DNA from: Pseudarthrobacter sp. NS4
Lineage (GTDB): Bacteria > Actinomycetota > Actinomycetes > Actinomycetales > Micrococcaceae
NCBI RefSeq assembly: GCF_024758005.1
Contig: NZ_CP103288.1
Location: forward strand, 620,001 to 684,000
Reading direction: 5' to 3'
DNA: 64,000 bases
In this document: positions 24,424-39,586 of the stretch, in pieces
Numbering within the stretch: the stretch's first letter is position 1
Layout: the number at the start of each line of letters is the position of its first letter
The notes under the pieces: model-generated
The model's input: only the letters and a program-made list of their open reading frames with translations
What the model was told of the DNA's origin: nothing
The model's database searches: none
Program-made: the position numbers and the translations under genes

Positions 24424-25119
24424 CTAGGTGTTTTGGACGTTGGTTTTGGCGTCGGTGGCGCGGTCCTTGACGTCGGTGGCGGCGTGTTGGCCTTCGGCTT
24501 TGACGTTTTGGGCTGCGTCGGTGGCGGTGGCTGTGACGTTGTCCATGGCTTCCTGGGCCGGTTCCTTGAGGTCCTGGACCATGTCCTTGGCGGCGTCGGT
24601 GACCTGGGTGGCCAGGGGCTGCGCGGCGGTTTTGAGCTGGTCGGCCGCTTCGCGCTCCTTCTGGCTTGGCGGGATCAGGGACGAGACGAGCATTCCGGCG
24701 CCGAACGCGATCAGGCCGGCGGCCAGGGGGTTGCCCTGGGTTTTGGCTTTGACCTGGTCTGGTGCCTGGGAGATCGCGGTCCCGGCGTCGGAGAGCCTGG
24801 CGGAGACGGTTTCGCCGGCACCGGAAAGTTTGGCGGCGGCGTTGTCCTTGGCCCCGTGCAGGGTGTCACCGGTGCTGTGCAGGGCGCCGCTGGTTTGCCC
24901 GGTGCCGGAGGAGACCTTGTCCTGGACCCGGGTGGTGGCGTTGTCTGCTGCTCCCATGATTTTCTCCTTCACCCCGGTGACGGCGTCTTTGACCTTGTCG
25001 GTTTGCCGCTGGACGACATTGGCTGGGGTGACCTTGTCCGCGACGGCGTCCACGTTGGTGCCCAGGCGTGCCCGGGTGGCTTCAATATCTGAACGGATTG
25101 CGTCCGGGTTATCGCTCAT
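24424..25119 (-). CDS. DUF3618 domain protein with LEA-like C-terminal repeats
   Basis: 231 residues. The N-terminal DUF3618 motif (DAIRSDIEATRARLGTNVDA) is followed by amphipathic helical segments and one membrane segment at about 131-151 (NPLAAGLIAFGAGMLVSSLI). The C-terminal 80 residues contain repeated Ala/Thr/Asp/Lys-rich helices (TDAAKDMVQDLKEPAQEA, ATDVKDRATDAKTNVQ) like LEA or apolipoprotein helices. Its ATG overlaps the Holin-X stop codon (ATGA), so it is coupled to that gene. Presumably a membrane-associated stress protein. Confidence 0.88.
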   Translation of the reverse strand: MSDNPDAIRSDIEATRARLGTNVDAVADKVTPANVVQRQTDKVKDAVTGVKEKIMGAADNATTRVQDKVSSGTGQTSGALHSTGDTLHGAKDNAAAKLSGAGETVSARLSDAGTAISQAPDQVKAKTQGNPLAAGLIAFGAGMLVSSLIPPSQKEREAADQLKTAAQPLATQVTDAAKDMVQDLKEPAQEAMDNVTATATDAAQNVKAEGQHAATDVKDRATDAKTNVQNT

Positions 25120-25547
25120 CGGTTTACCTCACCTGGTTTTAGGGTTGGGGGGATCTCGGAAAGTGTTTCGCCGGTCTGGGGCATGCCCTGGATCTGCTTG
25201 AGTTTCTTGCGGCCGATCGCTGCCAGGACGGCGGCGATGATGCCCCAGATCACGGCGACGATCACGGCGGCCCAGCCCAGCGGCATCAGGGCGCCCAGGG
25301 CGAACATCAGCGCCAGGGACAGGAAGACCAGGACGAAGTGCCCGGCCACGCCGGCGCCGGCGAGCATGCCCGCGCCCTTGCCTGCCTTCGTGGCGGACTG
25401 CTTGGCCTCTGCCTTGGCCAGCTCCAATTCCTGGCGCATCAGCGTGGACAGGTCCCGGGTCACATCACCCAGCAACTCACCCAACGAGGCGTTATCGGCC
25501 TTCACATGCGCTTCACTCGGAGGAGGCTCCGGAATCTGGCTGCTCAT
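25116..25547 (-). CDS. Actinobacterial Holin-X family protein
   Basis: 143 residues. SLGELLGDVTRDLSTLMRQE and ELAKAEAKQSATKAGKGAG are the family's N-terminal amphipathic helices, followed by two membrane segments (about 65-90 and 92-115). Despite the name (Phage_holin_3_6) these are chromosomal proteins usually next to DUF3618 genes; they are not shown to be holins. The start overlaps the previous stop codon as TGATG and its own stop overlaps DUF3618, making a coupled trio. Confidence 0.9.
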   Translation of the reverse strand: MSSQIPEPPPSEAHVKADNASLGELLGDVTRDLSTLMRQELELAKAEAKQSATKAGKGAGMLAGAGVAGHFVLVFLSLALMFALGALMPLGWAAVIVAVIWGIIAAVLAAIGRKKLKQIQGMPQTGETLSEIPPTLKPGEVNR

Positions 25548-28440: not shown

Positions 28441-28584
28441 GAAAAAGCTCCTTGGCAGGGGTAGGCAATTCCGCTTACAAGCTGAGCCTATAGCGGGCGA
28501 GGATTGTTTTATAAGCAACCTTATGATTTCCTACTGCTAAGTCTTGCCGCAGGCTTCGGAACCAGACCGAGGGAACCAACGACA

Positions 28585-29502
28585 ATGCCCGAATACCTTG
28601 CCGCGCTTGCCGTGGATGCTACGCCAGTGCCCCAGCAGGAGGCAGAACTTCATCAAAATAACCCTTTGCCCGCCAAGTCAGGACGGCTGCGGCAGACCTT
28701 CGAGAACGACCTGGTCCTGAGCTACCTCGACCTGGCTGAAGCCCTGGCCGCCCGCTTCGAAGCCCGCGGACGTGAACGCGCGGACTTGAACCAGGTGGCC
28801 TACCTTGGCCTGGTCAAGGCAGCCCGCGGCTTCGACCAGTCCAAGGGCGAAAGCTTTCCCGCCTACGCTGCCCCCACCATCACCGGAGAGTTGAAGCGGT
28901 ACCTCCGTGACCGGACCTGGGTTGTCCGGCCGCCCCGGCATATCCAGGACCTTCGGACCCGGATGTTCCGTGCTGAACCGGAGTTGACGCAGACCCTGGG
29001 AAGGAACCCCAGCGTGGCCGAGCTGGCCGGCGAATTGGGGACGGACCCGGCAGAGGTGCAGGAGGCCATCTCCGCATCGAGCAGCATGCATCCGGACTCG
29101 CTGGATGCCGTTAACCCACACTCCGACGCACCGTCCATGGGCGAAGTGCTGGCCTGTCCTGATACGCCCCTGGAGCGGCTTGAAGAGCTCGCCTGCCTGC
29201 GTGAGGCGATGCAGGACCTGAACGCTGCGGACCGGGAACTTCTCTACCGCCGCTACTTCTGTGAAGAGACCCAGGTGCAGCTGGGCAAGCGCCTGGGCAT
29301 GTCCCAGATGCAGGTTTCACGCCGGCTGGCCCGGGTGCTCGTGGAACTCCAGCGCCGGCTGGAAAGCAGTTCGCACTCCAGTGCAGCCGCCGGTGATGCG
29401 GGCGCCCCTGCTTCCTTTGGGGCTGCCCGCCGTGCCGCAAACTCCGCGTTGACAGGTACAGACGCGGACCGAAGAATCGGTGCCAGATCCAGGACCAGGT
29501 AG
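28585..29502 (+). CDS. RNA polymerase sigma factor, SigB/SigF/SigG subfamily
   Basis: 305 residues from ATG 28585 (GAGGGAACC upstream). Region 2 is recognisable in YLGLVKAARGFDQSKGESF and the DNA-contact segment GELKRYLRDRTWVVRPPR. Region 3 follows (NPSVAELAGELGTDPAEV), and region 4 (LGKRLGMSQMQVSRRLARVL) has the helix-turn-helix for the -35 element. This subfamily controls general stress genes in actinobacteria. No anti-sigma gene is adjacent. CsbD, YihY and the LEA/Holin-X/DUF3618 trio lie within 6 kb and are natural candidate targets. Confidence 0.92.
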   Translation: MPEYLAALAVDATPVPQQEAELHQNNPLPAKSGRLRQTFENDLVLSYLDLAEALAARFEARGRERADLNQVAYLGLVKAARGFDQSKGESFPAYAAPTITGELKRYLRDRTWVVRPPRHIQDLRTRMFRAEPELTQTLGRNPSVAELAGELGTDPAEVQEAISASSSMHPDSLDAVNPHSDAPSMGEVLACPDTPLERLEELACLREAMQDLNAADRELLYRRYFCEETQVQLGKRLGMSQMQVSRRLARVLVELQRRLESSSHSSAAAGDAGAPASFGAARRAANSALTGTDADRRIGARSRTR

Positions 29503-29680
29503 CGGCCGGAGCACCGGAATCCATTGAAGGAGGGCAGCTCCCCGTCCCGCTGAAAAGCGGCGGCAGCAGTCACTGAAATTCCTATCTTGCCTGTTCAACG
29601 GCTCGGAACTTCTCCATCCGAAAGCCGAGAAAAGCCCGCGGTCCTGTTTAGCAGAAGCAGCAGTGGGGAACGGGGTGGAT

Positions 29681-30217
29681 ATGGGAAGCTCCGTAACCTC
29701 CAAACTCCGGGCTGTCCTGTTCGACCGGGACGGGACCCTGGTGATCGATGTGCCCTACAACGGGGACCCCGCGTCGGTCAGGCCGATGCCGGGCGCCAAA
29801 GCCGTGCTGGACAGCCTCCGGGCCGAGGGCATAGCAACCGGCGTCATCAGCAACCAGTCGGGCATTGCGCGTGGCCTGATCACAGAGGCTGACGTGGCAG
29901 GGGTCAACGCCAGGGTGGAAGAACTCCTGGGACCCTTTGACGTGTGGGAAGTGTGTCCGCACTCCGAGCAGGATGGCTGCGCCTGCCGGAAGCCCGCACC
30001 CGGCATGGTCCACAGCGCCTGCCGGAAACTCGGCATCCATGAATCCGAGGCCGCATTGATCGGGGACATCGGGGCCGACGTCGGGGCTGCGGAAGCTGCT
30101 GGAGCAACAGGCGTGCTGGTTCCCACTCCGGTGACCCGGGCCGAGGAGGTGGCTGCAGCGCGGCTGGTGGCCCGTGACCTGGCGGCAGCCGTCGGCCTGC
30201 TGCAGGGGGCGCCCTGA
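29681..30217 (+). CDS. GmhB-like heptose bisphosphate phosphatase (HAD-IIIA)
   Basis: 178 residues from ATG 29681 (GGGGTGG upstream; an in-frame GTG lies at 29663). HAD motif I is VLFDRDGTLV and motif II SNQSGIARG. The zinc-type loop CPHSEQDGCACRKPAPGM matches GmhB with its Cys-X-His...Cys-X-Cys ligands, and motif IV is IGDIGADVGA. GmhB removes the 7-phosphate of D-glycero-D-manno-heptose 1,7-bisphosphate. It opens a tightly packed operon with GmhA- and HldE-like genes, and the next ATG overlaps its stop codon (TGATG). Confidence 0.88.
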   Translation: MGSSVTSKLRAVLFDRDGTLVIDVPYNGDPASVRPMPGAKAVLDSLRAEGIATGVISNQSGIARGLITEADVAGVNARVEELLGPFDVWEVCPHSEQDGCACRKPAPGMVHSACRKLGIHESEAALIGDIGADVGAAEAAGATGVLVPTPVTRAEEVAAARLVARDLAAAVGLLQGAP

Positions 30218-31305
30218 TGGGCCGCGTCCTGGTGGCACGGCTGGACAGCATGGGCGATGTCCTGCTTGCAGGGCCTGCTGTGCGTGCTGTGGCAAACGGC
30301 CTGATCCTTGACGGCAGCGCCGCGAACCACGTGGTGATGCTGTGCGGCCGTCAAGGGGAGGCTGTGGCCGGCCTGCTGCCCGGGGCTGCGGAGGTCTACA
30401 GCTGGGACAGCCCCTGGATCATGAATCCTGCGCCAAAGATGACCGGTCCACATGCAGACCGGCTTATCGATTACGTCCGTAATTCCAGGATTACCGAAGC
30501 CGTCATCCTGACCTCCTTCCACCAGTCCCCGCTGCCGCTGGCATTGCTGCTCAGGCTTGCCGGCGTGGAACGGATCACCGGCGCGTCCACCGACTACGCC
30601 GGCTCCCTGCTGGATGTCCGGCTGAAGCCAGGTGAGGACTTTCCGGAGGACCAGCCCGAGGCGGAACGCGCGCTGGGCATCGCCCAGGCCGCCGGGTTCC
30701 GGCTGCCCGCCGGCGACGACGGCAAGCTCCATCTGGCATCCGTGCCCGATGCCCGGGGGCTGGTGGGGAACGAACCTTATGTGGTGGTCCATCCGGGTGC
30801 TGCCGTTCCGGCCAGGGCCTGGCCGCCGCTGCACCACGCGGCCGCTGTCGAACTCCTGCAGGGTGCGGGCCACCGGGTGGTGGTAACCGGCGGCCCGGGT
30901 GAAACCTCCCTGACCGCAACCGTTGCAGGTCCCTCCGCACTGGACCTCGGCGGACGTACCGACCTGCACATGTTGGCAGGTGTCATGGCAGGGGCACAGG
31001 CCGTGGTCACAGGCAACACCGGTCCGGCGCATCTGGCGGCCGCCGTGGGGACGCCAGTCGCCTGCCTCTTCGCACCTGTGGTGCCGGCTATCCGCTGGGC
31101 ACCCTACGGGGTGCCGCTGGAACTGCTCGGCGACCAGAACGCAGCCTGCCGGATGACCCGTGCCCGCGTCTGCCCGGTCCCGGGCCACCCCTGCCTTGAC
31201 TCCGTCTCTCCTGAGGAAGTGGTGGCAGCCGTGGAACGGCTGATCGGCGGAGTGAGCTCCTTCAGTACCCACGTCAGTACCCGTAGAAAGGCCCGCAACA
31301 GATGA
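30217..31305 (+). CDS. Glycosyltransferase family 9 (heptosyltransferase-like)
   Basis: 362 residues. MGRVLVARLDSMGDVLLAGPAVRA is the GT9 N-terminus, and the C-terminal nucleotide-binding region has VVTGGPGETSL, the TDLHMLAGVMAGAQ block and GNTGPAHLAAAVGTP. GT9 enzymes in Gram-negatives transfer heptose from ADP-heptose to lipid A core. Here, with GmhA/GmhB/HldE-like genes, it probably uses a heptose nucleotide with another acceptor. It overlaps genes on both sides by 1 and 4 bases. Confidence 0.9.
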   Translation: MGRVLVARLDSMGDVLLAGPAVRAVANGLILDGSAANHVVMLCGRQGEAVAGLLPGAAEVYSWDSPWIMNPAPKMTGPHADRLIDYVRNSRITEAVILTSFHQSPLPLALLLRLAGVERITGASTDYAGSLLDVRLKPGEDFPEDQPEAERALGIAQAAGFRLPAGDDGKLHLASVPDARGLVGNEPYVVVHPGAAVPARAWPPLHHAAAVELLQGAGHRVVVTGGPGETSLTATVAGPSALDLGGRTDLHMLAGVMAGAQAVVTGNTGPAHLAAAVGTPVACLFAPVVPAIRWAPYGVPLELLGDQNAACRMTRARVCPVPGHPCLDSVSPEEVVAAVERLIGGVSSFSTHVSTRRKARNR

Positions 31306-32336
31306 AAATCCTGCTCTGGCATGTCCACGGTTCCTGGACGGACGCCTTTGTGCGTGGCCGTCACGAGTACCTGCTTCCCGTGCTGCCGGAAGGTGGTGCC
31401 TGGGGGCTTGGCCGTGCGGGCAGGGACTGGCCGGCTTCAGTGCGGGAGGTGGACCTGGCGACGCTCGACGCCGACGCCGTTGACGCCGTCGTACTCCAGC
31501 GCCCCGATGAAATCGGGGAGGTCACCCGGATACTCGGAAGAACCCCCGGCGTCGACCTGCCCGCGGTGTACGTCGAACACAACACACCCAAGGGGGACTT
31601 CCCATTCACCACCCACCCGCTTGCGGACCAGCACAGCATCCCGATCGTCCACGTGACCCACTTCAACAGGCTCGCCTGGGACAACGGTTCCGCTTCCACC
31701 CTGGTCATCGAGCACGGCATCCCGGACCCCGGCCAGCTCTACACGGGGGAGCTCGCCGAACTGGGCGTGGTGGTCAATGAGCCGGTACGCCGCGGCCGGG
31801 TCACGGGTACCGACCTGCTTCCAGCATTCGCCTCAGTCGCGCCGCTGCAGGTCTTTGGCATGAAGACGGACGGACTCGCAGCCGCCACCGGGATCGGGGA
31901 ATCCCGCCTGACGGCCCGCGGGGACCTGCGGACGCAGGAACTGCACCGTGAACTGGCGCGTTGCCGCGTCTACGTACACCCGATGCGCTGGACTTCCCTG
32001 GGACTGTCCCTCCTGGAAGCCATGCACCTGGGAATGCCGGTGGTTGCCCTGGCAACTACCGAAGCGCCGCGGGCGGTGCCGCCCGAGGCCGGCGCCGTCT
32101 CCGCCGATATCGACGAGCTGCTCCGCTGCGCGCGGCGGCTGGTCACCAATCCGGATGAAGCCCGACGGCGGGGCATTGCCGCCCGTGAGGCGGCACTGGA
32201 ACGTTACGGCCTGGGCAAGTTCCAGGACCGCTGGGATGAGCTCCTGGCGGACCTGCGCAGCCTGCCCCGGCACTCCGTCAACGAGCACCGGGACGAGCGG
32301 ATCCTTGTCCCGGCGCGAGAGAGGAAGACCCCATGA
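31302..32336 (+). CDS. Glycosyltransferase, GT4-like
   Basis: 344 residues, ATGA-coupled to the GT9 gene. The N-terminal half is unusual ([20 protein letters not shown]), with [14 protein letters not shown] resembling bacterial glycosyltransferases of surface glycans. The C-terminal half has the GT-B donor site: [20 protein letters not shown] with the Glu-containing [12 protein letters not shown] loop. Substrate and acceptor are unknown; the operon context suggests a heptose-containing glycan. Confidence 0.85.
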
Positions 32337-33586
32337 AAATCGCGATGATTTCCGAGCACGCCAGTCCGCTGGCGGCACTGGGCGGGGTGGATGCCGGGGG
32401 GCAGAACGTCCATGTTGCGGCGCTTTCCGAGGCACTCGCCAAACGGGGCCACCACGTCACCGTCTACACCCGCAGGGATGCAACGGAGCTTCCCTCCCGG
32501 GTGCAGGTAAGCCGGCGGTTCGAAGTGGTCCATATCGATGCGGGCCCTGCCCGCCATGTCCCCAAGGACGAGCTGCTTCCCTATATGGGAGAGCTCGCGG
32601 AGAGCGTGGCCAGGGACTGGGGGCAGCGGCCGCCGGATGTGGTGCACGGGCACTTTTGGATGTCCGGGCTGGCTGCGCTGGAGGCAGCGCGGCGGCCCGA
32701 TGCCGGATACCGCGTCCCGGTCATCCAGACCTTCCACGCCCTGGGCACCGTCAAGCGGCGGCACCAGGGTGCCGAGGACACCAGCCCTGCGGAACGCCGC
32801 TGGCTGGAACCCGGTGTGGGGCGTTCCGCGGACAGGATCATAGCCACCTGCTCGGACGAGGTCTTCGAACTCAAGGCCATGGGCATCGCCACCGGCAAGA
32901 TTTCGATTGCCCCCTGCGGCGTGGACCTTGGCTTCTTCTCGGCAGACGGGCCCGTCGACACCAGGAAACGCCGCCACCGCATCCTTTCCGTAGGCCGCCT
33001 GGTGCCGCGGAAGGGCGTGGACCTGGTGATCCGCGCCCTGCCGTACCTGCGCGAGGCCGGGTTCGACGACGTCGAACTGCTGATTGTGGGCGGCGGCGGG
33101 GACTCGTACGTGCTGCACGCCGATCCTGAGGTGCGGCGCCTGTTGGACCTGGCCGCCGAGCTGGGAGTTTTGGACCACGTTTCGCTGCACGGCCAGGTTT
33201 CCCGGGGTGAAATGCCAGGGATCTTCCGAAGCGCCGATGCAGTGGTCTGCGCGCCCTGGTACGAACCGTTCGGCATCGTCCCGCTGGAGGCCATGGCCTG
33301 CGGTGTTCCCGTTGTTGCGGCGGCCGTAGGCGGCCTGCGGGACACAGTGGTGGACCATGGCACCGGGCTGCACGTGCCGCCACGGGACCCGGAGGCCATC
33401 GCTTCCGCCCTCGCCATGCTGCTTGAAAACCCAAGCCTGCAGGCGGAGCTTGGCAAAGCGGGCCAGAAGCGCGCCCGTACCCGGTATTCCTGGGACCGGG
33501 TGGCCGCAGAAACCGAAAAGGCCTACCAGCTTGCCGTGGCGGAGGCCCCGGCCGGCGTCGTTCCCATGGAAGGAGCCGTGCTGTGA
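32333..33586 (+). CDS. Glycosyltransferase family 4 (MshA/sucrose-phosphate-synthase-like)
   Basis: 417 residues, ATGA-coupled. The N-terminal [20 protein letters not shown] and [11 protein letters not shown] blocks resemble sucrose-phosphate-synthase-type and MshA-like GT4 enzymes. The donor domain has [19 protein letters not shown] and the EX7E loop [20 protein letters not shown]. It likely adds a sugar to a surface or soluble glycan. The donor is not deducible from sequence alone. Confidence 0.9.
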
Positions 33587-34311
33587 CTGCTGAATGGTCC
33601 CTGAGGGAAGCCGACCTGCGGGCTTTGACCACGCCGTCCGCGTTGCCTGGCGTATTGCCAGGTTCCGCGTTCGTGGATGCTGCCAGCGCCGATGCCGTCC
33701 GGATCCACCTGGACAACGTGCTGCCGGCGCTCGACTCGCTGCGAAACCAGTCCGGCAGGCTCGCCGCCTGGGGTGTGGAGCTGGCCCAGCGCCTGCTCCG
33801 CGGCCAGCGGCTCCTCGCCGCCGGCAATGGCGGTTCGGCTGCCGAGGCGCAGCACCTCACCGCCGAATTGGTAGGCAGGTTCGACGGCGAGCGCGTCCCG
33901 TTCTCCGCTATCTCCCTGCACGCCGAGTCGTCGGCGGTGACCGCCATCGCCAACGATTACGGTTACGACGACGTCTTCGCCCGGCAGGTGCGGGCACATG
34001 CCCGCTCCGGCGATGTGCTGATGCTCCTGTCCACCAGCGGCAAGAGCCCCAACCTGCTGCGGGCTGCCGAGGTGGCGTCCCGGCTCAACGTGACTACCTG
34101 GGCACTGACCGGTGCGGGACCCAACCCGCTGGCCGACGCCTGCAATGAGGCCGTCATGATCGAGGCCCTCAACGCCAACGCGCAGGAAGGACACCTGATC
34201 GCGCTGCACGCCTTGTGCCGCGCCTTTGACCTGGAGGTGGCCCGCCGCAGTCCCGCCGTTGCGCCCGTACCCGGCAAAGCCGGATTGCCCAAGGGAGGTG
34301 GCCGACCATGA
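33583..34311 (+). CDS. GmhA-like sedoheptulose 7-phosphate isomerase (SIS domain)
   Basis: 242 residues, GTG start overlapping the previous stop codon (GTGA). The SIS domain shows [36 protein letters not shown] and the C-terminal [20 protein letters not shown]; the AEAQH and QEGHL residues are those of GmhA active sites. GmhA converts sedoheptulose 7-phosphate to D-glycero-D-manno-heptose 7-phosphate, the first committed heptose step. About 40 extra N-terminal residues precede the domain. Confidence 0.9.
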
Positions 34312-35795
34312 GGATTGTGGTGGTTGGCGACGTCATGCTGGACGTGGACCTGTCCGGTGAGGCCACGCGGTTGAGCCCCGACGCCCCGGTTCCGGTAGTG
34401 GATGTTTCCGGCGTCCGGCGACGCGCCGGGGGTGCCGGACTGGTGGCCCGGATGCTGGCCGAGGACGGCTGGCCTGTCACCCTGGTGACCGTGCTGGGCG
34501 ACGACGACGCCGGGCGGCAGCTCCAGGAGCACCTTGCCGGAGTGCGCCTGGTGTCAGGCCCCAGCGGCTACCCCTCGCCGGTCAAGACACGGGTCCGGGC
34601 GGGATCGCACCCCGTGGTCCGTTTCGACCAGGGATGCGAAAAGACGCCGGTTCCCGACGTCAGCCCCGCCATGCTCCGCGCCGTGGAAAAGGCTGGAGTG
34701 ATCATCGTTGCCGATTACGGCAGGGGAGTGGCAGCCAACCCGCAGCTCCGGGAACTCCTGGCCCGGCTGGCGGATCAGGTTCCCATCATCTGGGACCCCC
34801 ATCCCGCCGGGCCGGACCCCGTGCCCGGGGTCGCCGTGGTTACTCCGAACCTCGCCGAAGCGATCAAAGCCGCCCAGTCCCGGATGCCGGATGATGCGCA
34901 ACCCGGGAAAAGCGGTGCGGCCAACGCCGCTAAGCAGGAACCGCAGGCCGGGGACCCGCAGGACGATGCACAGCCTGACGGTTCACCCCAGGACCAGGCC
35001 GCCGAGGTTGGCCGGATCCTTTTGGACCAATGGCACAGCCGGGCAGTCCTGGTCACCAAGGGGGAGCAGGGCGCGGTCCTGCTGCGCGGGAACCACCCGT
35101 CCCCGCACCCCGTTCCCGCCCCGCGCGTGGAAGCCGGGGATCCGTGCGGAGCGGGCGACCGCCTGGCAGCCGGGCTCGCGGTGCACCTCCTGGCCGGGCG
35201 CACCCTTGAGGAAGCAGCCGAACTGGCGGTCCATGACGCCGCGGACTTCCTGGCCGCGGGAGGGGTCTCAGCGCTTCCGGACCGCACAACAAAACCTGCG
35301 GGGCGGAAACCTGAATCCTCCGCGGCAGCACGGCGCCGATCCACGGAACCGCTGCTGCTGGCCCGCTCGATCCGGCAGAACGGCGGAACCGTGGTGGCCA
35401 CCGGCGGTTGCTTCGACCTCCTGCATGCCGGACACGTCCGGTCCCTTACCGCAGCCCGTGAGCTGGGGGACTGCCTGATCGTTTGCCTGAACTCGGACGA
35501 TTCGGTGCGGCGGCTCAAGGGCCCCGAGCGTCCCATCATCGGCCAGCATGACAGGGCCGAACTCCTGCTCGCCATGGAATGCGTGGACGCGGTGCTGGTC
35601 TTCGAGGAAGACACCCCGGAGGCCGCCCTGGAGCGCCTGCGCCCGGACATCTGGGTCAAGGGCGGCGATTACAAAGGGGCCCGTCTCCCCGAGGCAGACC
35701 TGGTGGAAAGCTGGGGCGGCCGCTGCCTCACCGTGCCCTTCCATCCGGCACGTTCCACCACGGGACTTGCCGATGCGCTCGCCAAGGTGAGCTGA
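34308..35795 (+). CDS. HldE-like heptose kinase/adenylyltransferase, divergent paralogue 1
   Basis: 495 residues, ATGA-coupled. The N-terminal PfkB-type kinase domain ([19 protein letters not shown]) is followed from about residue 360 by a nucleotidyltransferase domain with the HxGH motif (His373-Ala-Gly-His376) and LKGPERPIIGQHDRAELL. The catalytic Asp284 in CGAGDR is kept, but the usual GAGDTF is GAGDR and the substrate-binding GGAANxAxNLA is GGAGLVARMLA. An acidic Pro/Gln-rich insert of about 40 residues sits near 195-235. It may act on a different sugar or be kinase-weak. A canonical paralogue lies 2.2 kb downstream. Confidence 0.85.
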   Translation: MRIVVVGDVMLDVDLSGEATRLSPDAPVPVVDVSGVRRRAGGAGLVARMLAEDGWPVTLVTVLGDDDAGRQLQEHLAGVRLVSGPSGYPSPVKTRVRAGSHPVVRFDQGCEKTPVPDVSPAMLRAVEKAGVIIVADYGRGVAANPQLRELLARLADQVPIIWDPHPAGPDPVPGVAVVTPNLAEAIKAAQSRMPDDAQPGKSGAANAAKQEPQAGDPQDDAQPDGSPQDQAAEVGRILLDQWHSRAVLVTKGEQGAVLLRGNHPSPHPVPAPRVEAGDPCGAGDRLAAGLAVHLLAGRTLEEAAELAVHDAADFLAAGGVSALPDRTTKPAGRKPESSAAARRRSTEPLLLARSIRQNGGTVVATGGCFDLLHAGHVRSLTAARELGDCLIVCLNSDDSVRRLKGPERPIIGQHDRAELLLAMECVDAVLVFEEDTPEAALERLRPDIWVKGGDYKGARLPEADLVESWGGRCLTVPFHPARSTTGLADALAKVS

Positions 35796-35829
35796 CAAAT
35801 TTCTTGTATTCCCCATCGAAAGGAACACC

Positions 35830-36531
35830 ATGACTGCAGACTCCAAAACCCCTGGCCGCGTACTGGTCACGGGAGGTGCCTCCGGACTGGGAGCCGCCGT
35901 CGTCGACGCCGTCCTGAAGGCAGGCGGAACACCGGTGGTGCTGGACCGCAACATCAGCAACGTGTCCGCCGTGAAGGCGTTTGAAGTGGACGTCTCGGAC
36001 CGCCTGGCTGTGGAAGAGGCAGTGCGGGAAGCCGCCGAATCCATGGGCGGCCTGGACGCCGTTGTGACCGCGGCCGGCATCGACCGCTGCGGCAAGTTGG
36101 CCGACGTCGAAGCCGCCGAGTGGGAAAAGGTCATCGGGGTGAACCTGATGGGCACAGTATCGGTGGTGCGTGCCGCCCTGCCCTACCTCAAATCCACCCA
36201 TGGAAGGGTACTGACGGTCGCATCCACGCTGGGCAAGCGCGCGGTGGCCGATGCAACGGCGTACTGCGCCTCCAAGTTCGGGGTGGTGGGCTTCAGCCAC
36301 GCGCTCGCCGCGGAGACCGGCGGGGAAATCGGCGTCACCACCATGATCCCCGGCGGAATGAAGACGCGCTTCTTCGACGACCGCACCGAGCAGTACAAGC
36401 CCCAGGACGACTCACGCCTCAACGACCCCGGCAACGTGGCCCAGGCCATCATGTTCGCGCTGTCGCAGCCGACCGGGTGTGAAGTCCGCGAAATGCTGAT
36501 TTGCCACGAGGAAGAGGGCTCCTGGCCCTAA
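35830..36531 (+). CDS. Classical short-chain dehydrogenase/reductase
   Basis: 233 residues, AAAGGAACACC before ATG 35830. The coenzyme motif is VTGGASGLGAAVVDA; AAGID replaces the usual NNAG; the catalytic Ser is in LTVASTLGKRAVADA and the YxxxK in AYCASKFG. It lies inside the heptose operon, between two HldE-like genes and next to an aldehyde dehydrogenase. It is not an HldD-type epimerase, which would be a longer extended SDR. Probably oxidises or reduces a sugar or linker intermediate (inference). Confidence 0.9.
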   Translation: MTADSKTPGRVLVTGGASGLGAAVVDAVLKAGGTPVVLDRNISNVSAVKAFEVDVSDRLAVEEAVREAAESMGGLDAVVTAAGIDRCGKLADVEAAEWEKVIGVNLMGTVSVVRAALPYLKSTHGRVLTVASTLGKRAVADATAYCASKFGVVGFSHALAAETGGEIGVTTMIPGGMKTRFFDDRTEQYKPQDDSRLNDPGNVAQAIMFALSQPTGCEVREMLICHEEEGSWP

Positions 36532-36572
36532 GCCCGCAAACGGACTAAAACGGAATCGTCGGGAGGAAAACC

Positions 36573-38045
36573 ATGCCTACAACTGCCACCGAAGTGACCA
36601 CAAGCCGGGAATCAGCCGAGGGCTCCGGCATCACCATCCGCGACCCGCGCACCGGCGAAGTCCTGTGGACTGTGCCGGAAGCCGGACCCGCTGCGGTGAC
36701 CCAGGCCGTGGAGGTGGCGCGAAGCGCCGCCGGTGACTGGGCTGCCACAGCCCCGGCCGAGCGGGGTGCCGCGCTCCGCACCGCCGCGAAGGCCCTCGAC
36801 GCTGCGGCGGAGGAATTGGCCGGGCTCAACGCCAGCGAAACGGGACGTCCGGTCCAGGAAGCGCTGGCCGGGATTGCCGCCGGTGTCTCCACCCTGGAAC
36901 AGTACGCTGAACTGGGCCCGGTGCACCGCGGCCACAGCCTGCGGGGCAACCGGCTTGCCTCTGACTACACAGTGGCGGAACCGAGGGGCGTGGCCGTCCT
37001 CCTGACTCCGTGGAACGATCCCGTGGCCGTGGCCTGCGGCCTGATCGGTGCAGCGCTGGTCACCGGCAACACCGTCATCCACAAACCCAGCGAGCGCTGC
37101 CCGCGCCTGGGGGAGGCACTTGGCGAGGTCCTGGCGCCGGCCTTCCCGCCGGGCGTGTTCCTGACTCTCTCCGGCGGAGCGGACGTCGGTGCGCTCCTGT
37201 CCCAGGCGGAAGTGGATGTGCTGGCGCATGTGGGTTCCAGTGCGTCCGGTGCCCGGATCGCCCGTGCGGGCGCCTTGACCGGAGCCCACGTCATCAGGGA
37301 AAACGGCGGAAATGATCCCCTGCTGGTGGACCGCGACGTGGACCCGGCGTGGGCGGCTGAGCAGGCTGCAATCGGTGCCTTCAGCAACAGCGGCCAGATC
37401 TGCGTGGCCGTCGAGCGGATTTATGTGCACGAGGCCATCGCCGCCGAGTTCTGCGCTGCGCTTGAAGCGGAAGCGGCATTGCGCAACAGCAACGGCACGG
37501 TGGCTCCGCTGGTTGACCTGCGGATGCGGGATGAAGTCCACGCCCAGGTCACGGACGCCCTCAACCAGGGTGCACGGGTGGTGGAGGGCGGTGTCCTTCC
37601 GGACGGGCAGGGCTCCTTCTACCCGGCCACCGTATTGCTTGATTGCACCGGGCAGATGCAGGTGATGACGGAGGAAACCTTCGGCCCGGTTGCCCCGGTA
37701 CAGGTGGTCAAAACGTTCGACGACGGCCTGCGCCTGGCCTGCAGCGGCAAGTACGGCCTGGCCGCCACAGTCCTGACCGGCAACATGGCCCACGTCCAGC
37801 AGGCCGTTGCGTCCCTGCCTGTGGGCACCGTAAAGATCAACGAGGTTTTCGGCGGCGCGCCCGGCGGGGCGGCCCAGCCACGCGGCGAGAGCGGGCACGG
37901 ATTCGGCTACGGGCCCGAACTGCTGGATGAGTTCAGTCAGGTGAAGGTGGTGCACATCGCGGCTCCTCCTGCTGCTGCCATGCGCGGGGCCGGGCCGGAA
38001 GAATCCGCGGGGGACGAAGCCATTGAAGAACAGGACCAGCAATGA
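36573..38045 (+). CDS. Aldehyde dehydrogenase family protein
   Basis: 490 residues, GGAGGAAAACC before ATG 36573. The family blocks are present: LLTPWNDPVAVACGLIGAAL, the catalytic Glu in IRENGGNDP and the nucleophile Cys in SNSGQICVAVERIYV. The Glu motif is altered from the usual LELGGKNP. A disordered acidic tail closes the protein. It is coupled to the second HldE-like gene by ATGA. Its position suggests oxidation of an aldehyde or sugar intermediate within the glycan pathway; the substrate is unknown. Confidence 0.9.
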   Translation: MPTTATEVTTSRESAEGSGITIRDPRTGEVLWTVPEAGPAAVTQAVEVARSAAGDWAATAPAERGAALRTAAKALDAAAEELAGLNASETGRPVQEALAGIAAGVSTLEQYAELGPVHRGHSLRGNRLASDYTVAEPRGVAVLLTPWNDPVAVACGLIGAALVTGNTVIHKPSERCPRLGEALGEVLAPAFPPGVFLTLSGGADVGALLSQAEVDVLAHVGSSASGARIARAGALTGAHVIRENGGNDPLLVDRDVDPAWAAEQAAIGAFSNSGQICVAVERIYVHEAIAAEFCAALEAEAALRNSNGTVAPLVDLRMRDEVHAQVTDALNQGARVVEGGVLPDGQGSFYPATVLLDCTGQMQVMTEETFGPVAPVQVVKTFDDGLRLACSGKYGLAATVLTGNMAHVQQAVASLPVGTVKINEVFGGAPGGAAQPRGESGHGFGYGPELLDEFSQVKVVHIAAPPAAAMRGAGPEESAGDEAIEEQDQQ

Positions 38046-39586
38046 GCATGTCCCCGGAAACCGTGGACCTCTCCAGCCAGCGGGCGTTGTCCGAATGGCT
38101 CCCAGGGAGGCTGGCAGCGGAAGAACCACGCATCCTGGTGATCGGCGACGTGATGCTGGACGGCTGGTGGAGCGGCAGCATCGAACGGCTTTGCCGGGAG
38201 GCTCCGGCCCCGGTGGTGGACATCCAGGCCCGGGAATCAGTGCCCGGTGGTGCCGCCAATACCGCCATGAACCTGGCCGCCCTGGGTGCCAGGGTCTCGG
38301 TGGCGGGGATCATCGGGTCCGACGACGCCGGAGTGGACCTGAAGAACCAGCTGGTGGCCGCCGGCATCGACGTCCGCCACCTGCACTCCCACCCGGACAT
38401 GGTGACCACCACCAAGATCCGGATCAGCAGCGGCGGCCAGGTGATGCTCCGCCTCGACGACTCCGCCAAAACCGTGCCGGACGATGCGCTGGCCGCGCTC
38501 GCGGCCTCGGTGCGTGCCGCCGTCGAACGCCAGGACGCTGTGCTGGTATGCGACTACGGAACAGGCGTCCTGGCGGATCCGGTGCATGCCGTGTTGGTGG
38601 ACGCCCTTGCCGCAGGCCCTCGGCGCGGGGACGGTAAAAGGCGCAGCCCATTGGTCGTGGTCGACTCCCACGACCCGCGCCCGTGGGCGCCGCTGCGTCC
38701 GGACCTGGTGACGCCGAATGCCCAGGAAACCGCGCGGATGCTGGACAGGCGGCTTCCCGACGGCCAGGAGCGGGTTGAAGCCGTGGGCGGACACGCCGAC
38801 GCGCTGCTGGCGGCCACCGGTGCCCGGGCCGTGGTGGTCACACTGGACCGCGACGGCACAGTGCTCCTGACTTCCGATGGCGTCAGGCACCGGACGTGGG
38901 CGCGCCCGGCAGCGGAGAAGCAGGCATCCGGCGCGGGCGACACCTTCGTTGCAGCTCTTACGCTGGCCCGATCGGCCGGACTTCCGCTCACGGCGAGCCT
39001 GGACCTGGCGCAGTCCGCTGCCGACGTGGTGGTGCACCAGCCGGGCACATCGGTCTGCAGCACCGAACAGCTCAGCCGCTACCTGCGGGCATTCGCGGAT
39101 ACGGCGCTGGGTGCGGACGAACTGGAACGGCAGATTGAGGTGCACAGGGCACAGGGGCAACGGATTGTGCTGACCAACGGCTGCTTCGATGTCCTGCACA
39201 GCGGCCATACCCGCTATCTCAACCAGGCCAAGCAGTTGGGCGACATCCTGGTGGTGGCCCTCAACAGTGACGAGTCGGTCCGTCGGCTCAAGGGCTCGGG
39301 CCGGCCCATCAACTCAGTGGCCGACCGCGCAGCCGTGGTGGCGGCCCTGAGCTGTGTGGACTACGTAACGGTCTTTGACACGCCCACGGCAGCGCCCCTC
39401 ATCAAGCAGCTTCGGCCCGAGGTGTACGCCAAGGGCGGGGACTACACCCCGGAAATGCTGGCGGAAACCCCCGCAGTTGAGGAGTACGGCGGCCGGGTGG
39501 CCATCCTGGACTATGTGGCGGAACGGTCCACCACCGCCGTCGTGAACCGTATCCGGGACGGGCAGGGCGCCGCGACGGCGACGTGA
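38042..39586 (+). CDS. HldE-like bifunctional heptose kinase/adenylyltransferase, canonical paralogue 2
   Basis: 514 residues, ATGA-coupled. The kinase domain keeps the HldE pattern: VIGDVMLDGWWSGS, PGGAANTAMNLAALGARVS and SGAGDTF with catalytic Asp300. The nucleotidyltransferase domain begins near residue 375 (LTNGCFDVLHSGHTRYLNQA; HSGH at 386-389) and has LKGSGRPINSVADRAAV and YAKGGDYTPEML. HldE phosphorylates heptose 7-phosphate at C1 and later adenylylates heptose 1-phosphate. With the GmhA- and GmhB-like genes this completes a route to ADP-heptose. Confidence 0.92.
   Translation: MSMSPETVDLSSQRALSEWLPGRLAAEEPRILVIGDVMLDGWWSGSIERLCREAPAPVVDIQARESVPGGAANTAMNLAALGARVSVAGIIGSDDAGVDLKNQLVAAGIDVRHLHSHPDMVTTTKIRISSGGQVMLRLDDSAKTVPDDALAALAASVRAAVERQDAVLVCDYGTGVLADPVHAVLVDALAAGPRRGDGKRRSPLVVVDSHDPRPWAPLRPDLVTPNAQETARMLDRRLPDGQERVEAVGGHADALLAATGARAVVVTLDRDGTVLLTSDGVRHRTWARPAAEKQASGAGDTFVAALTLARSAGLPLTASLDLAQSAADVVVHQPGTSVCSTEQLSRYLRAFADTALGADELERQIEVHRAQGQRIVLTNGCFDVLHSGHTRYLNQAKQLGDILVVALNSDESVRRLKGSGRPINSVADRAAVVAALSCVDYVTVFDTPTAAPLIKQLRPEVYAKGGDYTPEMLAETPAVEEYGGRVAILDYVAERSTTAVVNRIRDGQGAATAT

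Follow-up and report, generated by a model that had tools for sequence, protein, structure and literature searches.

A heptose-pathway operon in Pseudarthrobacter as a probable Arthrobacter-group form of the actinobacterial cwg operon

Why a Gram-positive actinomycete should carry a whole set of homologues of the enzymes that lead to the heptose of the Gram-negative lipopolysaccharide (LPS) inner core is the question raised by a locus of Pseudarthrobacter sp. NS4. The window analysed in this study is a stretch of 64,000 nucleotides, positions 620001-684000 of one 4.44 Mb chromosome, and in it nine plus-strand genes (29681-39586) form an operon in the order gmhB, GT9, GTx, GTm, gmhA, hldE1, SDR, ALDH and hldE2, where GTx, GTm, HldE1 and HldE2 are labels coined in this analysis. 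We consider, with a probability of roughly 0.7, that this operon is the form which the cwg ('cell wall glycan') operon of actinobacteria takes in the Arthrobacter group, and that it makes a heptose-containing envelope glycan. Judged by gene order, the novelty would lie in an Arthrobacter-group variant of a known cwg-type operon, one that probably makes activated heptose and builds a cell-envelope glycan with heptose. A preliminary description of the locus had taken its product as not yet described, which is too strong, because the published precedent of cwg in Streptomyces coelicolor had been missed and a wide bacterial distribution of enzymes of nucleoside diphosphate (NDP) heptose synthesis was reported in 2024 (PMC11461863, PMC11573728; all sources are cited here from extracts of their text). 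Our literature searches found no published account of the operon in Micrococcaceae.

Gene order and distribution of the block

The cwg operon of S. coelicolor was reportedly described by Hong et al. in 2002, and its glycan is said to have been called putative ever since. Two loci, L116 and L224 (the latter on a Streptomyces plasmid), hold 12-gene runs of the order epimerase-carbamoyltransferase-GT2-gmhB-GT9-GTx-GTm-gmhA-hldE-GT9-GT2-GT2, with the isomerase eighth, HldE ninth and no SDR, and the first six genes of the window block stand in the same order inside such Streptomyces-type operons. As printed in the extract of PMC5839063, S. coelicolor cwg spans the 12 genes SCO6179-6190, with a phosphoheptose isomerase (SCO6186) eighth, a bifunctional synthase/transferase (SCO6187) ninth, transferases at SCO6180, 6181, 6183, 6185 and 6188, and a dehydratase at SCO6182. 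The Streptomyces-type runs fit cwg, because both have 12 genes, the isomerase in eighth and the bifunctional enzyme in ninth place. The operon is further described as vancomycin-induced and partly sigma-E-dependent (PMC5839063, PMC6767563), and as lying within a cell-envelope stress regulon (PMC6767563).

Relatives were compared in the locus sets L039-L070, L101-L140 and L141-L220 (80 loci), which partly overlap (L039 = L141); the relatives are not independent, so that counts and Fisher values are descriptive. The block gmhB-GT9-GTx-GTm-gmhA-hldE1-SDR is conserved in Actinomycetota. With GmhB fusions (508-509 aa) counted as gmhB, the seven core genes stand in order within eight genes in 61/80 of the L141-L220 loci, and at least six are in order in 71/80. 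Among 46 further order- or phylum-level loci, some with short contigs and some holding other clusters (L130-L136, L138-L140), all seven genes are in order in 10 and at least six in 22. This core gene order is far beyond chance. The other clusters carry an HldE2-type enzyme, and L133, L134, L135, L138, L139 and L140 also have relatives of gmhA, gmhB and GT9 in another order.

The block occurs in two architectures. In many distant lineages a carbamoyltransferase (PF02543/PF16861) precedes it and a second GT9 follows; HldE2, often ALDH, and divergent GT9 genes accompany it in the Arthrobacter group, as they do in several further families. When 126 loci were grouped (118 with an anchor gene), SDR was found in 102 and ALDH in 52, and the 105 loci with hldE1 entered the gene-pair tables, where hldE2 is present in 57, carbamoyltransferase in 28, neither in 20 and both in 0. 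One locus without hldE1 (L139) has HldE2 together with carbamoyltransferase, which counters a strict exclusion. The carbamoyltransferase has no match anywhere in the window genome. At about 2.1737-2.1758 Mb of the same chromosome (L222:8710-10827) lie two adjacent GT9 genes, kin of those flanking the operon in relatives, the first of them split between two reading frames in the assembly.

Presence and absence go by whole blocks. Among 396 Actinomycetota genomes, GTx was detected in 39 (E 1e-25) and HldE in 50 (E 1e-30), with 37 common to both, so that an HldE match is found in 37/39 GTx genomes versus 13/357 of the remaining genomes. Both HldE copies are present in 25 of 37 same-genus genomes (own included) and neither in 12, and these 12 also lack GTx, showing generic hits of 19-35 bits only. 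At one operon-free locus (L255) the upstream sigma gene is followed by 67 bases and a spermidine-synthase-like gene with nothing between, the other flanking genes being kept and the promoter pattern absent. As to mobile DNA, the DNA-level search gave one weak plasmid match, while GTx protein relatives are found on 13 plasmid or second-replicon records, including a 1.0 Mb Arthrobacter replicon in which a GTx relative (65% identical) and a GmhA relative (77%) lie about 2 kb apart.

Enzymes, active sites and promoter

The coordinates in the preliminary description proved right, as the first gene starts at the conserved ATG 29681 (an alternative GTG at 29663 falls within the promoter element) and the last stop is at 39586. 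Its remark on short overlaps also holds, since the gaps along the operon are -1, -4, -4, -4, -4, +34, +41 and -4 bases, with overlaps of 1 or 4 bases at 6/8 junctions. As for gene content, the GmhA-, GmhB- and HldE-like proteins, the GT9 and two GT4 transferases were recognised correctly, and the second HldE fusion (both are full-length), SDR and ALDH went unmentioned. Domains were assigned by Pfam/NCBIfam profile searches, with curated equivalog cut-offs as reference. The operon begins with a GmhB-like HAD phosphatase (HAD-IIIA, 178 aa; 29681-30217), followed by a GT9 heptosyltransferase-like protein (30217-31305; PF01075, 78 bits, cut-off 22), the short GT4-like transferase GTx, the hallmark of the module (31302-32336; PF13692, 44 bits, cut-off 27), the GT4 transferase GTm (32333-33586) and a GmhA-like sedoheptulose 7-phosphate isomerase of SIS type (33583-34311). 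HldE1 (34308-35795) is a putative fusion of heptose 7-phosphate kinase and heptose 1-phosphate nucleotidyltransferase, and it is followed by a classical SDR oxidoreductase (35830-36531; PF00106, 142 bits), an accessory aldehyde dehydrogenase (ALDH, 36573-38045; PF00171, 346 bits) and the second HldE-like fusion, HldE2 (38042-39586). The nucleotidyltransferase domains score 180.8 (HldE1) and 194.6 bits (HldE2) against a TIGR02199 cut-off of 181.5, the HldE2 domain alone clearing an equivalog cut-off.

Catalytic positions show almost no variation among some 100 relatives. The zinc ligands H91, E95, Q201 and H209 of GmhA are present in 100/100 rows and align with H61, E65, Q175 and H183 of the gonococcal enzyme, which are given as the zinc ligands of Neisseria gonorrhoeae GmhA in the extract of PMC5387315. 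The zinc-loop residues of GmhB (C92, H94, C100, C102) are found in 99/99 rows and its D15 in 97/97 aligned rows; the PfkB aspartate is kept in 102/102 HldE1 and 66/66 HldE2 rows; and of the HxGH histidines both are kept in 102/102 HldE1 rows, against 64/66 and 66/66 in HldE2. The EX7E motif of GTm occurs in 111/111 rows, and D14 of GT9, presumably its catalytic residue, in 125/125 aligned rows, with 6 further rows gapped there. Judged by their sequences, GmhA, GmhB and HldE are clearly members of NDP-heptose enzyme families with intact active sites, and the view that a complete set of such homologues is linked to a GT9 and other transferases in a Gram-positive stands.

By sequence matches to solved structures, the SIS and PfkB proteins did not turn out to belong to non-heptose families. 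The top relative is a phosphoheptose isomerase for GmhA and a heptose 7-phosphate kinase for HldE2. In HldE1 the second domain gives the top match, to a 'putative cytidylyltransferase', and a heptose kinase ranks third. For GmhB an unnamed HAD hydrolase ranks ahead of GmhB itself. Identification of GTm as MshA, its top NCBIfam match, was rejected (TIGR03449, 243 bits, cut-off 462.5), the MshA of the genome lying elsewhere at 514 bits; GTm also matches sucrose-phosphate-synthase models. For GTx, identity in hldE1-type loci throughout the phylum is about 50-63%, and its nearest named relatives are from Arthrobacter and Pseudarthrobacter. Window HldE1 further carries, inside the kinase domain, a Gln/Asp/Ala-rich insert of about 40 residues, which split hits suggest to be shorter in relatives. 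In the same phylum, a distant actinobacterium (L113:3634-5157) has a GmhB-like phosphatase with an N-terminal GT2 fused to it.

Upstream, the element GTTTAG-N14-GGGAAC (29646-29671, plus strand), which we take to resemble SigB/SigF promoters, stops 9 bases short of ATG 29681. Neither box varies in the 15/15 aligned loci (the window and 14 others), despite variable flanks, and the pattern recurs in 9/9 further readable loci of the genus (one with GTTTGA; L061 is cut). GTTT-N14-19-GGG(A/T)A(C/T) is found upstream of gmhB in 47/66 readable L141-L220 loci, some Microbacteriaceae included (14/80 loci have no readable region there), compared with about 0.005 matches expected per region, as reckoned from the density of a nearly identical pattern. 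The gene just upstream of the operon (28504-29502, plus strand; coding signal from 28585) encodes a SigB/F/G-type sigma factor (TIGR02980, 216 bits, cut-off 234) and is found in 24/24 same-genus carriers with readable upstream sequence (own included); this linked factor may well use the operon promoter. A wider regulon of the promoter was tried and set aside: GTTTN{15,17}GGGAAC has 26 genome matches versus 13 for a reversed control, 19 of them inside called genes and 7 intergenic, and only the gmhB site abuts a gene start. Two of the other six intergenic sites are followed by a gene start after 78 or 190 bases, and for four no start is called; one of the six has GTTTAG and overlaps the end of an opposite-strand gene, presumably glgC-like. 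Further upstream, DUF3618 and Holin-X genes lie on the minus strand (24427-25547), and a Holin-X gene is near the sigma gene in many relatives, as well as in operon-free L255. Among ten neighbour genes scanned, none was named as an S-layer protein or glycan gene, no search having been aimed at such genes.

Predicted pathway and its alternatives

In the pathway that we propose, heptose 7-phosphate would arise from sedoheptulose 7-phosphate through GmhA and be phosphorylated to heptose 1,7-bisphosphate by the kinase domains of HldE1 and HldE2, GmhB would remove the 7-phosphate, and the nucleotidyltransferase domains would yield NDP-heptose. Heptose would then be transferred by the operon GT9, and perhaps by the GT9 genes at the second chromosomal locus, while GTx and GTm would add heptose or other sugars onto an acceptor. 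The operon would be driven from one promoter by a sigma factor of SigB/F type, which is probably the linked one, and the glycan would therefore be made under stress. We take the product to be, most likely, a stress-induced envelope glycan or glycolipid with heptose in it, and besides ADP-heptose the pathway may also supply CDP/UDP-heptose.

The two HldE proteins deserve separate attention. In a tree of 52 rows they form separate clades (support 100/100), with E. coli, the sole Gram-negative row, on the HldE2 side of the midpoint root. With clades this deep, we rejected a recent tandem duplication of HldE1 as the origin of HldE2, which by sequence diverged anciently. The motif (F/L)XXGRSTT is published as the STTR5 heptose nucleotidyltransferase motif, whose arginine is reported to give NTP promiscuity (Tang et al. 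2024, as related in the commentaries PMC11461863 and PMC11573728, of which one is by authors of that study), though the commentary, in its extract, states that this arginine is not strictly required. With rows of 380 residues or fewer dropped, the arginine is kept in 94/102 HldE1 and 29/66 HldE2 rows (His in 19). In the window both HldE1 (FHPARSTT) and HldE2 (YVAERSTT) have the arginine, the glycine being replaced by A and E, respectively, and F/L by Y in HldE2. The most speculative part of our account is that the two might supply different NDP-heptoses, which is proposed on the grounds that the promiscuity arginine is kept by HldE1 but often missing from HldE2; since both window proteins have Arg and neither matches the full motif, differing nucleotide use is put forward as a hypothesis. 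Held more loosely than the cwg assignment, and tentative as a whole, is the wider idea that Actinobacteria and some Burkholderiales share one stress-controlled heptose envelope glycan, carbamoylated in many lineages, of which the Gram-positive version has its own heptose supply, with HldE1 and HldE2 of the Arthrobacter group feeding two nucleotide-heptoses (e.g. CDP/UDP-heptose and ADP-heptose) to different transferases.

Several observations weigh against this account. GmhA (PRK13936, 152 v 276 bits), GmhB (PRK08942, 106 v 178) and the kinase domains (152 for HldE1 and 222 for HldE2 v 345) are under curated equivalog cut-offs, as is GT9, and the phosphatase exceeds the cut-off of a histidinol-phosphatase domain model (99 v 84). 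No ADP-heptose 6-epimerase (HldD) over cut-off was found in the genome (top match 91 bits, cut-off 274.6), so that only the D-glycero form is expected. Flippase, polymerase and ligase genes are absent among the nine operon genes, which leaves export unexplained. HldE matches without GTx occur in 13 genomes, 19/66 readable L141-L220 loci are without the promoter pattern, and the sigma gene is kept in 2/12 same-genus non-carriers (searched at E 1e-20, against 1e-5 for carriers) and is not strictly tied to the operon. The window's own HldE2 carries the promiscuity arginine, contrary to a division of nucleotides. Lastly, the cwg likeness rests on gene order and printed annotation, Streptomyces-type loci standing in for the S. 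coelicolor sequence.

The main rival, which we regard as unlikely but worth serious attention, is a soluble or secreted heptose small molecule, such as a stress solute, glycoside or natural product. The missing export, polymerase and ligase genes would suit it, no such family being common around the block either (families in at least 8 loci), and so would the resemblance of GTm to MshA and sucrose-phosphate synthase, enzymes of small glycosides, as well as the use of ADP-heptose by two Streptomyces for septacidin and hygromycin B (PMC10221265). However, the extra GT9 genes elsewhere (one frame-split) and the two GT4 transferases suggest a longer chain, conservation throughout the phylum, and also in Burkholderiales, does not resemble that of a natural-product cluster, and cwg is placed in an envelope stress regulon (PMC6767563).

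That some other sugar phosphate is the substrate of the SIS, HAD and PfkB-nucleotidyltransferase proteins, with no heptose made, is in our view improbable: the scores under equivalog cut-offs and the 'putative cytidylyltransferase' match of HldE1 would agree with it, but GmhA zinc ligands are complete in every row, the kinase and HxGH residues are invariant in HldE1 and nearly so in HldE2, the whole pathway co-occurs with GT9, and two Burkholderiales clusters retain the transferases but are missing precisely the genes for heptose supply. Very improbable indeed is a recently acquired Gram-negative LPS-type cassette without a fixed role. LPS-type enzyme names, the absence of the block from 12/37 same-genus genomes and the 13 plasmid or second-replicon records might suggest it, yet HldE1 and HldE2 form old clades of actinobacterial rows apart from E. 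coli (the single Gram-negative row), gene order is kept across families and the promoter is conserved. The heptose envelope glycan of cwg type is our preferred reading.

Comparison with known systems

The 2024 commentary, in its extract, calls the roles of CDP- and UDP-heptose elusive and suggests inspecting the genes beside heptose enzymes (PMC11573728), and this operon offers such a case in a group that can be cultured. If the cwg glycan is read as one that contains heptose, its structure would become open to direct test, since that reading comes with a defined minimal gene set, a counterpart in Gram-negatives and a promoter with a footprint. On the same reading, common soil actinobacteria may be a source of ALPK1 agonists. 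Should the two-nucleotide-heptose proposal be true, a physiological role for CDP/UDP-heptose would follow.

With the Gram-negative ADP-heptose pathway of the LPS inner core (GmhA, HldE, GmhB, HldD, WaaC/WaaF), the window operon appears to share the four activities up to NDP-heptose and a GT9; it differs in having no HldD over cut-off and two HldE proteins, which are about 35% identical to E. coli HldE and have Arg where the nucleotide motif of E. coli has Cys. The septacidin and hygromycin B systems, likened here by description, also make ADP-heptose in a Gram-positive actinomycete, but in a natural-product context (extract of PMC10221265). Replicons of Burkholderia multivorans (L223) and Caballeronia (L225) carry homologues of GmhB, GT9, a second GT9, GTx, GTm, GT2 and the carbamoyltransferase at 31-49% identity (GTx 35-36%, GTm 43-44%, carbamoyltransferase 48-49%), SDR being present in L223 only and GTm and GT2 of L223 lying on the opposite strand about 3-10 kb off. 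Their regulators differ from those of the window, and gmhA and hldE are absent from both stretches; the simplest reading would be that hosts already making LPS heptose need no second supply. Near both lie genes for an ABC transporter and a PIG-L deacetylase, and L223 has BON-domain, DUF892 and DUF2795 genes, its ABC transporter carrying a response-regulator domain.

Unlike cwg, the window operon has no epimerase, carbamoyltransferase or linked GT2 gene; its other GT9 genes lie at a separate locus, SDR, ALDH and HldE2 are added, and a SigB/F-type promoter takes the place of sigma-E. No sigma-E-like promoter was found in the 402 bases up to gmhB in the window, and a weak sigma-E-like site in L224 was discounted, as it proves nothing. 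What the two have in common, through L116 and L224, is the order of HAD, GT9, GTx, GTm, phosphoheptose isomerase and HldE-like fusion, together with a putative cell wall glycan as product and apparent control by an alternative sigma factor.

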